64,000 nt of DNA from Chryseobacterium arthrosphaerae. Lineage in GTDB: Bacteria > Bacteroidota > Bacteroidia > Flavobacteriales > Weeksellaceae. The notes beneath the pieces are model-generated. The model had not been told where the DNA came from. It was given only the letters and a program-made list of their open reading frames with translations, and ran no database searches. The position numbers were made by a program, and so were the translations under genes. Location of the stretch: positions 496,001 through 560,000 of the forward strand of contig NZ_MAYG01000001.1 of the NCBI RefSeq assembly GCF_001684965.1. Reading direction: 5' to 3'. Position 1 is the stretch's first letter; each line of letters starts with the position of its first letter. Below, piece after piece: positions 30,740 through 53,294 of this stretch.

Positions 30740-30774
30740 AATAATCCTGATTAGTTATCTGTTAATAATCTATT

Positions 30775-30833
30775 AATCAGGCGTCATCAGCTTTTGTAAA
30801 GCGGTTCGGGGAAGGAAGAACACCATTTCCTTT
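30775..30833 (-). promoter_or_regulatory. Fluoride riboswitch (crcB motif)
   Basis: On the minus strand the leader reads GGAAATGGTGTTCTTCC, then CCGAACCGC, a GCTTT-ACA-AAAGC hairpin, and TGATGACGCCTGA. This matches the crcB-motif aptamer block by block (GGxGATGGxxTTCCxCC ... ACCGC ... GCTGATGxxGCCT). The pair GGTGT/ACGCC stands where the known Pseudomonas RNA has GGCAT/ATGCC, a compensatory change. Behind the aptamer CTGATTA (30780-30774) can pair with TAATCAG (30753-30747), 7 nt before the ATG. This is a likely expression platform acting on translation, since no T-run follows. Fluoride binding should turn the exporter on. Confidence 0.92.
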
Positions 30834-30841
30834 TGATATTG

Positions 30842-39650: not shown

Positions 39651-39705
39651 ATAGAAACAGAGAACACAATAATTAGTACGCTTGTGGTAATTTAAATTTC
39701 TCACT

Positions 39706-39728
39706 GATCCGGCAGATTGCGCAGATCA
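39706..39728 (-). repeat. Copy of the ATCTGCG repeat family
   Basis: On the minus strand ATCTGCGCAATCTGCCGG has the same repeating ATCTGC words as the elements around the GxxExxY gene at 52115-52764. No GxxExxY gene is adjacent here. Confidence 0.55.
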
Positions 39729-39752
39729 TATACAAAATGAGAAGTGTAAAAA

Positions 39753-51664: not shown

Positions 51665-52042
51665 ATGTCTGACAAAAAATTAGCAGGAATCTGGATTGAT
51701 ACAGAGAGAGCCGTGGTCGTAAAGAATCACGACGCCCAACGTACTTTTGAATTCTCTCTTTGCAAGCCTGTAAAAGCAGAAATCCAGCATGGTAATTCCA
51801 GCGAAAATGCGGGAAATAATGCTGAGATCACCAATAGGAATAAGTTTTTTAAAGAAATTGAACATCTTTTGACCAATTCCCAGGAATTATATATCACAGG
51901 CCCCGGGGTGATGCAGGAAGAACTGAAACATTTTCTTCATGATACAGCCCAGTTCAGAGATCTGAAGATTACAATGGGAACTTCACAGAAGATGACCGAT
52001 GAAAAAGTACTGGAAACAGTAAAGGATCATTTTAATTATTAA
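51665..52042 (+). CDS. Hypothetical cytosolic protein
   Basis: A 125-residue protein with no signal peptide. It opens KLAGIWIDTERAVVV and later has ELYITGPGVMQEELKHFLHD, ending MTDEKVLETVKDHFNY. The layout recalls short eRF1/host-attachment-type domains (strand, helix, GPG loop), but I cannot assign it. It stands alone, 130 nt after the methyltransferase. Downstream are a perfect hairpin and the repeat island around the GxxExxY gene. Confidence 0.8.
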   Translation: MSDKKLAGIWIDTERAVVVKNHDAQRTFEFSLCKPVKAEIQHGNSSENAGNNAEITNRNKFFKEIEHLLTNSQELYITGPGVMQEELKHFLHDTAQFRDLKITMGTSQKMTDEKVLETVKDHFNY

Positions 52043-52055
52043 ATCATTGATCATG

Positions 52056-52100
52056 CAATATAATCGCCGGGGCATCGAAGATGCCCCGGCGATTATATTG
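52056..52100. repeat. Perfect 21-bp hairpin with a GAA loop
   Basis: Positions 52056-52076 and 52080-52100 are exact reverse complements, with only GAA between them. The inner 13 bp of the arm are GC-rich (CGCCGGGGCATC) and the outer part AT-rich (CAATATAAT). It begins 14 nt after the stop at 52042 but lacks a T-run, so it is not a standard terminator. It borders the repeat island. Confidence 0.9.
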
Positions 52101-52114
52101 ATTAATGTGTAATT

Positions 52115-52146
52115 AAATCTGCGTCATCTGCTATATCTGCGAGCGA
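52115..52146 (+). repeat. ATCTGCG repeat, left copy of a 32-bp direct repeat
   Basis: This 32-bp sequence built from ATCTGCG/ATCTGCT/ATCTGCGAG words is identical, base for base, to 52733-52764 on the other side of the GxxExxY gene. Confidence 0.9.
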
Positions 52147-52195
52147 TATAATTAATTATAGAATCATTATACTCTGTTTGAATTGGAATATATTT

Positions 52196-52226
52196 TCTCG
52201 CAGATCTCGCAAATTACGCAGATTTT
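52196..52226 (-). repeat. ATCTGCG repeat, inverted copy
   Basis: On the minus strand AAATCTGCGTAATTTGCGAG and GATCTGCGAGA: the same repeat family as the flanking direct copies, inverted and with a few changes, 39 nt after the 3' end of the GxxExxY gene. Confidence 0.82.
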
Positions 52227-52264
52227 AATTGCAAAAATTAAAATAATTATTTGTTTGAACAGTG

Positions 52265-52642
52265 TTAAAGATTATTAACCACCCTTTTTATTCCATCCAG
52301 TATATTAGCAGTATTAAAATTAACCAGTAATCCAAGTTTTTTATCGGATAGCTTAAGATATGTATGTAACTGTTTGAAATGTATATCTTCAAGACCTTTT
52401 ACTGATTTAAGTTCTAGAATAACTTTATCTTCAACCAAAATATCAAGTCTGAAATTAAAATCGAATTTTTTACCATCATAGAAAACAGGAACTTCCATTT
52501 CTGATTTAACAGTCAATCCGTTTTCTTCAAGTTCGTAAATCAAAATTTTTTGATATATAATTTCAAGTAAGCCTGGTCCTAAATGATTATAGACATTGAA
52601 GATACATTTTCTTACGATATAAGAAATTTCATTTTCATTCAT
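52265..52642 (-). CDS. GxxExxY protein (PD-(D/E)XK nuclease fold)
   Basis: A 125-residue protein with the name-giving motif G24-LL-E27-II-Y30 in HLGPGLLEIIYQK. The nuclease-fold core follows: Asp67 in FRLDILVEDK, then Glu77 and Lys79 in VILELKSVKG, that is D-x9-E-x-K, and ends QLHTYLKLSDKKLGLLVNF. All catalytic positions are present, so it may be an active nuclease. GxxExxY genes are multicopy and of unknown function in many bacteria. Identical 32-bp repeats bracket it, and an inverted copy lies behind its stop. The gene has no operon partner. Confidence 0.92.
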   Translation of the reverse strand: MNENEISYIVRKCIFNVYNHLGPGLLEIIYQKILIYELEENGLTVKSEMEVPVFYDGKKFDFNFRLDILVEDKVILELKSVKGLEDIHFKQLHTYLKLSDKKLGLLVNFNTANILDGIKRVVNNL

Positions 52643-52732
52643 TTGTTTTTATTTTGATTAGAAATTCTATTTATTAGAGTTATCTCATACAGCTAAAATA
52701 TTTATTATCGTAAAACGTAAAGGATAAAGAAA

Positions 52733-52764
52733 AAATCTGCGTCATCTGCTATATCTGCGAGCGA
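52733..52764 (+). repeat. ATCTGCG repeat, right copy of a 32-bp direct repeat
   Basis: Identical over 32 bp to 52115-52146, located 91 nt upstream of the GxxExxY start codon. Confidence 0.9.
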
Positions 52765-52820
52765 AATATATAATATATAAAAACCGGTTCAATTTCTTAC
52801 AAGAAAATCACAAAGGTCAC

Positions 52821-53294
52821 TTAATATCTGATCCCTGTTTTTTTCAGAATAAAACTCAAAAGCCAGATCGGTCCCACCAGTAAAAACTGAAGATCCTTAA
52901 GGAATGAAGGCTTTTTCCCTTCAATCTTATGCCCTATGAACTGTAAAATCCATGTAATCACAAAAACAGCAAGATAAACCATCCATGACTGTTTTTCAAA
53001 ATAGATATTGGTAAGATAAATAAAATGTTCCGTAGCTGCTGTCAAAATGAGCATAATAATACTGATGCGTAATGATAATCTCAGATAAAACAGGGTAATA
53101 AGAACTACTGTAATGCTACTTACAATACTGATACAGCCGAAATAGGAAATGCATACGTGAGGGGACGGAATAAGGGAAATAAACCCCAGAATCGTCCAGA
53201 AAATCAAGGGTACACAAATCCAGTGGATCAACTTGTTGGTTGCGTTTCTATGGCTCTTGCTGTACTCTGCAAATAATAAATCAACCTTTCTCAT
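52821..53294 (-). CDS. Mpo1-like (DUF962) membrane protein
   Basis: A 157-residue inner-membrane protein from ATG 53294, with four to five helices. Family features are VDLLFAEYSKSHRNATNKLIHWICVP near the N-terminus and WILQFIGHKIEGKKPSFLKDLQFLLVGPIWLL near the C-terminus. The conserved His residues in SHxNxxNKxxH and in GHKxxEGKKP match the metal-binding positions of yeast Mpo1, a dioxygenase of 2-hydroxy fatty acid metabolism. A longer frame from 53342 adds 16 unconserved residues. It is divergent from the AraC gene. Confidence 0.9.
   Translation of the reverse strand: MRKVDLLFAEYSKSHRNATNKLIHWICVPLIFWTILGFISLIPSPHVCISYFGCISIVSSITVVLITLFYLRLSLRISIIMLILTAATEHFIYLTNIYFEKQSWMVYLAVFVITWILQFIGHKIEGKKPSFLKDLQFLLVGPIWLLSFILKKTGIRY

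Follow-up and report, generated by a model that had tools for sequence, protein, structure and literature searches.

A GxxExxY nuclease gene between inverted, iterated repeat arms in Chryseobacterium arthrosphaerae: a candidate chromosomal repeat-enzyme element

Repetitive extragenic palindromic (REP) repeats are short and scattered between genes, in many cases as inverted doublets, and the small enzyme gene tied to them, that of the REP-associated tyrosine transposase (RAYT), is itself flanked by the repeat; two accounts describe several classes of repeat, with each class close to a gene of its own (PMC3116915, PMC3733652). In this paper we describe a locus of Chryseobacterium arthrosphaerae in which a gene of the GxxExxY family stands between arms of a repeat that is scattered elsewhere in the same genome. 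It lies in a stretch of 64,000 nucleotides (contig NZ_MAYG01000001.1, positions 496,001 to 560,000), called the window below, to which all coordinates refer. We read the locus as a copy of a chromosomal repeat-enzyme element that is REP/RAYT-like, has an unrelated enzyme and may spread by repeat-templated repair, and we consider this reading about evenly poised between right and wrong.

The likeness to REP/REPIN and RAYT, REPtrons and TIRtrons lies in the dispersed palindromic repeats of the window system, their inverted doublets and a gene flanked by the repeat. The RAYT (TnpA-REP), however, is a Y1 HUH enzyme of the IS200/IS605-like type, whereas the window enzyme is predicted to be a RecB/Cas4-like PD-(D/E)XK protein and the repeats are iterated heptamers. 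Because it has no Y1 HUH enzyme, the window system is not a member of the REP/RAYT group and is similar to it only in its working. The intervening sequences (IVS) of 23S rRNA, which carry the S23p protein (TIGR02436), also place a small gene between inverted, iterated arms, but their protein is unrelated to GxxExxY, and the GxxExxY loci examined adjoin protein genes instead; the window unit lies between protein open reading frames (ORFs), and a scan of the window with Rfam gave no rRNA. In one account, the heptamer GACAGAT stands before the S23p ORF of the Coxiella 23S IVS (PMC4990558), and it is close to the CACAGAT word found here. Homing endonuclease elements offer a further parallel, in that repair of the site cut by a nuclease would, as proposed, copy the nuclease gene there; here, however, the proposed sites are dispersed repeats and not one allele, and there is no intron or intein.

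Anatomy of the element in the window

Three arms of one repeat surround the gene, each consisting of three CGCAGAT-like units in 9-bp steps plus a TCTC-like cap. The intact GxxExxY gene (52265..52642, minus strand) encodes a 125-residue protein of the PD-(D/E)XK nuclease fold, as judged from the ORF, profile matches, motif residues and predicted fold. The arm that faces it from the 3' side (52194..52226, plus strand; TCTCGCAGATCTCGCAAATTACGCAGATTTT) was recognised by repeat comparison and arm alignment, as was the arm that faces it from the 5' side (52732..52764, minus strand), in which the CGCAGAT word, read on the minus strand, points towards the gene. The proposed unit, arm, gene and arm, occupies 52194..52764 (no strand assigned) and is drawn from the inverted flanks and from a polarity that is the same as in 34 of 44 two-sided loci described below. 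An extra outer arm (52115..52146, minus strand; repeat comparison) shares 32 nt, base for base, with the arm at 52733. The direct copies 52115-52156 and 52733-52774 have 93% identity over 42 nt, the first 32 nt being identical, and over 32 nt there are 6 mismatches to the inverted copy at 52194. The first-pass annotation had described identical 32-bp repeats enclosing the gene together with an inverted, diverged copy at 52196. The identity and the inverted copy are borne out, but the direct repeats are rejected as element ends: the unit is bounded by the inverted arms facing the gene, and the copy at 52115 lies outside. As single-stranded DNA, the outer arm and the arm at 52194-52226 form a fold-back with a z of -4.2 against shuffles.

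The same element is present in a sister genome (G063; 92-94% nucleotide identity), where the direct copies are two unlike ones (ATCTGCGTCATCTGCGTTATCTGCGAG and ATCTGCGCAATCTGCTAATTTTGCGAG). The identity of the direct pair in the window is therefore no sign of recent insertion; from the sequence comparison, the two copies were probably homogenised later. A near-perfect, GC-rich inverted repeat at 52055-52101, just 3' of the ORF 51665-52042, is a terminator-like hairpin distinct from the arms.

The window protein matches TIGR04256 (GxxExxY) with 136.9 bits (cut-off 35) and PF13366 (PDDEXK_3) with 135.6 bits (cut-off 22), each over the whole model. These scores and the residues agree with the intact D-x9-E-x-K core and GxxExxY motif noted earlier: the motif is G24-Y30, the core is D67-x9-E77-x-K79, and G24, E27, Y30, D67, E77 and K79 are invariant across 20 family members. 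The predicted fold is RecB/Cas4-like, judged against one list of structures, so that families outside the list remain candidates. Like the Cas4/RecB nucleases it has the order E27, D67, E77-x-K79 and Q91-xxx-Y95, and it differs from them as the 125-residue product of a stand-alone gene. A search by sequence gave no solved structure for the protein (best E 0.71), and scans of Pfam and NCBIfam matched only PD-(D/E)XK families, with no DDE or HUH domain. Between the window and G063 the ratio of nonsynonymous to synonymous substitution rates is 0.17 which, from this one pair, shows the gene to be under purifying selection. Its nearest named relatives are almost all from Chryseobacterium; 7991 of 8000 candidates in one search scored as relatives at E <= 1e-10, and the window's own genome (5.05 Mb, 35 contigs) holds three GxxExxY genes. 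In the literature searched, mostly open-access and excluding preprints, the name GxxExxY is merely mentioned, with no assigned function found; PDDEXK_3, PF13366 and four literal repeat strings led to no relevant publication, and no description of a link between GxxExxY and repeats was found.

The arm is repeated beyond chance. When up to 2 mismatches are allowed, the 15-mer ATCTGCGTCATCTGC is matched 58 times in the window's whole genome and the reversed pattern 3 times; the three-unit arm, at no more than 1 mismatch, yields 1117 matches in 95 of 118 genus genomes and its reversed control none. A consensus from 33 arms (20 own-genome loci and the window) reads tttaaTCTCTCGCAGATt..GCAGATtaCGCAGATtTT. 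Of the 20 own-genome loci, 12 have single arms and four (L290, L298, L300, L302) have arms that face each other across loops of 8 to 155 bp; L302 also has a tandem series, in which about 155 bp lie from one arm to the next. Folded as single-stranded DNA, the L302 palindrome reaches z -6.0 against shuffles and two further stretches are weaker (z -2.0 and -2.4); a stretch assigned to L259 came from the wrong strand and is left out of this comparison. Within the window a solo arm without a gene stands at 39697..39731 (plus strand) and is common to G063, with no counterpart in the syntenic intervals shown for nine other relatives. The gene-less family member previously placed at 39706 is thus present as a weaker copy (39702-39726), too diverged for a 10-mismatch scan.

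Inverted flanks and repeat words at other GxxExxY loci

Flanks were scored by aligning the 250 bp upstream of a gene locally with the reverse-complemented 250 bp downstream and taking the best alignment; this score permits long, loose alignments, and controls were scored identically. Of 183 loci, the gene covered the model far enough in 178, and 173 offered a flank of 250 bp to either side; removal of proteins at least 75% identical left 91 non-redundant loci. Most were drawn from score-ordered lists, and the sample therefore leans to high-scoring genes. Neighbouring genes were compared at the 51 of these loci that were at least 6 kb long, and the tests of word against protein and of target duplication used 43 loci (score at least 18, arm up to 75 nt).

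Inverted flanks scoring at least 20 occur at 53/91 GxxExxY loci and in 8/656 control windows shifted along the same loci; at a score of at least 18 the counts are 65/91 and 28/656, and at least 25 is reached by 27/91 loci and by none of the 656 controls. At 20 or more, 33 of 51 GxxExxY genes are so flanked compared with 7 of 187 other genes of the same loci, and among the other genes under 600 bp the count is 4/65. Arrays of two C[AG]CA[AG]A[GT] units on both sides are found at 16/51 GxxExxY genes and 0/187 other genes, and both arrays read towards the gene in 34 of 44 two-sided loci. Arm segments show a period of 8-10 bp. Long direct repeats are also in excess (22/91 at a score of at least 25 vs 4/501).

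The iterated word varies by locus. ATCTGCG, the word of the first-pass annotation, is not the general partner of GxxExxY genes: its arrays lie within 1.5 kb of only one of the three GxxExxY genes of the window's genome, the window gene, and none was found at the 30 best-scoring genus loci (L004-L033). ATCTGCG as a universal partner is rejected, since reading the flanks of other loci gave other words, CACAGAG, CGCAAAG and CATTAAG among them. Tight bracketing by facing arrays is seen at many genes of the Bacteroidota sample, as in CCACAGAGGTACACAGAGGGCACACAGAG..gene..CTCTGTGTGCCCTCTGTGTACCTCTGTGG at L112. High flank scores extend beyond Bacteroidota, to Nostoc sp. 106C (33) and to metagenome-assembled genomes (MAGs), whose taxon labels may be wrong, of 'Akkermansia' (32), Desulfobacteraceae (29) and Acidobacteriales (28), with a Nitrospiria bin at 22 and a Methanosarcinales MAG contig at 21. 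Low scores were obtained for a Pirellula MAG (9), an Acidobacteria MAG (L208, 10), Zetaproteobacteria (12) and Neomarinimicrobiota (15). The CGCAAAG pattern CGCAAAGNCGCAAAG is clearly above control in 10 of 17 named genomes, for example Nostoc (70 vs 2) and the Nitrospiria bin (159 vs 3). Tandem pairs of GxxExxY genes within about 1.1 kb were seen at G208:C4:68683-69764 and G313:C1:3199652-3200531.

Arrays and genes also occur together across genomes. A GxxExxY gene is present in 149 of 296 Bacteroidota genomes sampled, and a degenerate three-unit pattern is found in 64/149 gene-bearing and 9/147 gene-lacking genomes (Fisher P 3e-14, kinship ignored here and in the two tests that follow). When one family that mostly has neither is left out (f17, counted by hand), the figures are 64/144 and 7/88 (P 8e-10). 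Within the genus, the median number of CGCAGAT arrays is 16.5 for the 26 genomes that carry the window's gene clade and 4 for the remaining 92 (P 2.8e-6); this clade was set by hand at an identity of at least 75%, with stop-bearing and partial copies in and remnants in G101, G089 and G011 out. The eight genus genomes without any GxxExxY gene have 6, 0, 0, 0, 2, 4, 0 and 0 CGCAGAT arrays.

Sites with and without the gene in relatives

The strain comparison proposed earlier finds the window element in G063 and not in seven relatives (G002, G023, G036, G042, G099, G110, G111), which in the 330 bp past the neighbouring gene have a terminator and another gene. That other gene, which follows the orthologue of 51665-52042 in the seven, is missing from the window and from G063, and the element (within 52042-52821) stands in its place. 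GxxExxY genes adjoin this neighbour gene, on either side, in 6 of 30 loci fetched. In G004 a hairpin-gene-hairpin lies between a methyltransferase gene and the same neighbour gene, and in G050, whose flanks are 94-95% identical to those of G004, one hairpin stands at this site; the right part of the G050 hairpin matches an arm of the left hairpin of G004, followed by the flank of the right hairpin of G004.

The interval between sufB and sufC was compared in 30 genomes (L258-L287), of which L271 was unreadable. Seven have a hairpin-gene-hairpin with the word CATTAAG (L261-L263, L265, L276, L278, L284) and L277 has a truncated gene; solo hairpins are found in L259 and L285, and both hairpins without the gene in L267. 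In six genomes (L258, L268, L269, L272, L279, L286) the interval is taken up by another GxxExxY clade, whose ends differ, no element was seen in six (L266, L273, L275, L280, L281, L283) and six have other content (L260, L264, L270, L274, L282, L287). With two GxxExxY clades, different ends and different species, the interval is an apparent insertion hotspot within an operon.

The G004/G050 and sufB-sufC comparisons each show both states, so that among relatives one site can bear either a gene-less hairpin or a hairpin-gene-hairpin. The gene-less sites with one repeat for which the first-pass annotation had suggested a search do exist: besides G050 there are G065 and G105, with solo hairpins between sufB and sufC where others have the gene between hairpins. 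These are gene-less cognate sites in relatives, as a homing-type element would have, and could also be losses; judged from sequence comparison, the change could have gone in either direction. Terminal inverted repeats around the gene, as in insertion sequences (IS), are present in imperfect form. Target-site duplications are in no excess over shuffled pairs (at least 5 bp in 15/43 loci vs 30%, with fuzzy arm ends). Some known IS make no target-site duplication. There was no match among 50,697 phage records and there were 8 matches among 72,556 plasmid records, and phages and plasmids are rejected as the main setting.

Mechanism and competing explanations

In the mechanism we propose, the locus is one copy of an element in which the gene of a predicted RecB/Cas4-like PD-(D/E)XK nuclease lies between facing arms of about three 7-mers each with 1-3 nt spacers; gene-less arms and hairpins of the same word are found scattered in the same genome. 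The nuclease would recognise its own word as a hairpin or single strand and cut or resect there. A cut solo hairpin would then be repaired from a hairpin-gene-hairpin donor, the repeats serving as homology, so that the gene is copied in; recombination between the arms would delete the gene and leave a solo hairpin, and template switching would give more hairpins. The working of such an element would resemble that of REP/RAYT elements, or that of a homing endonuclease with dispersed repeats as homing sites. We infer the binding, cutting and copying by the nuclease, as well as any direction of change, and favour this mechanism because it would account for the facing arms, the different words of different lineages, the solo and gene-bearing states, the homogenised arms of the window, the location in chromosomes and the failure to detect target duplications.

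Several results weigh against it. By flank score 26 of 91 GxxExxY loci fall below 18 and appear arm-less or decayed, and 7 of the 17 named genomes have no clear excess of the CGCAAAG pattern over control (Hymenobacter L167: 3 vs 10). G034 has 66 arrays without the window's gene clade, and G273, of the phylum sample, has 17+17 three-unit arrays and no TIGR04256 match, being either an orphan repeat population or the bearer of a diverged enzyme. The more identical two proteins are, the more their arms resemble each other (Mantel r 0.21, a value reached in 1/2000 permutations, 43 loci), a link of word to protein that is weak and partly due to relatedness. As a control family we took TIGR02436, the four-helix bundle of the 23S IVS, at its 30 best loci in the phylum sample (L308-L337); inverted iterated arms are found at 12/30 of these vs 1/111 shifted controls at a score of at least 18, and at 7/30 vs 1/111 at a score of at least 20, with words unlike those of the GxxExxY loci. 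It may be that repeats are particular to each family, or that such arms are a home for small selfish genes in general. Caution is needed, as the arms are not exclusive to the nuclease and need not be its substrate, and because of these genes we have lowered our claim that they are. The RAYT-like tie of a nuclease-fold gene to a dispersed repeat, which had been suggested for the window alone, is supported well beyond it in the flank, co-occurrence and polarity tests, but is shared in its arms with TIGR02436. The window's genome has six TIGR02436 genes.

These four-helix-bundle genes would also fit a reading that takes the hairpins for common intergenic repeats or terminators, spread by another enzyme, among which GxxExxY, a housekeeping or defence-type nuclease, only persists as in a haven. 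Genomes with many arrays and no gene point the same way, as do two weak profile matches, one of 18.4 bits to PDC-M36A, a candidate model for defence, and one of 21.9 bits to a CRISPR-associated phage family. The rarity of such flanks at other genes of the same loci, short ones among them, the fixed polarity towards the gene and the tracking of gene presence by arrays argue otherwise, and we think this explanation unlikely.

A classical transposon, with the arms as transposase ends, cut-and-paste carried out by the PD-(D/E)XK protein and the gene-less hairpins as miniature inverted-repeat transposable elements, would explain the terminal inverted arms, the dispersed palindromes and the copy in L267 that resembles an internal deletion; we regard it as improbable given the target-site, phage and plasmid counts above, arms that are imperfect and widely different between loci, and the profile scans without DDE or HUH domains. 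It is very unlikely, in our view, that the element acts at the RNA level like a 23S IVS, its arms folding in the transcript and being processed out, which would make insertion in operons such as sufBC tolerable. The units do sit between sufB and sufC, the proteins of 23S IVS have the same kind of arms, and the GACAGAT heptamers preceding the Coxiella ORF are in tandem; the GxxExxY loci examined, however, lie between protein genes and not in rRNA, gene-less arms are dispersed and often single, and the predicted fold is that of a DNA-type nuclease.

The recurrence of such arms around GxxExxY genes in many bacteria suggests an overlooked kind of repeat-and-enzyme selfish DNA. On a broader proposal, which we offer tentatively and with more doubt than confidence, minimal RecB/Cas4-like nucleases of several phyla would keep and spread their own iterated-heptamer hairpins by repeat-directed homing, in which they cut solo copies and repeat-templated repair copies them in, each lineage matched to its own word, as a widespread and undescribed class of selfish repeats; the four-helix-bundle genes would be a second lineage, tying in the 23S IVS. 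If GxxExxY proteins are the enzymes of dispersed repeats, the family, found in half of the Bacteroidota genomes sampled, gains a function hypothesis. Abundant repeats between the genes of Bacteroidota, and of some genomes in other phyla, would then have a possible source, and a different enzyme would have arrived at a REP/RAYT-like way of life.

Elsewhere in the window, a fluoride riboswitch at 30771-30839 (minus strand, 52.5 bits) is the only Rfam match.
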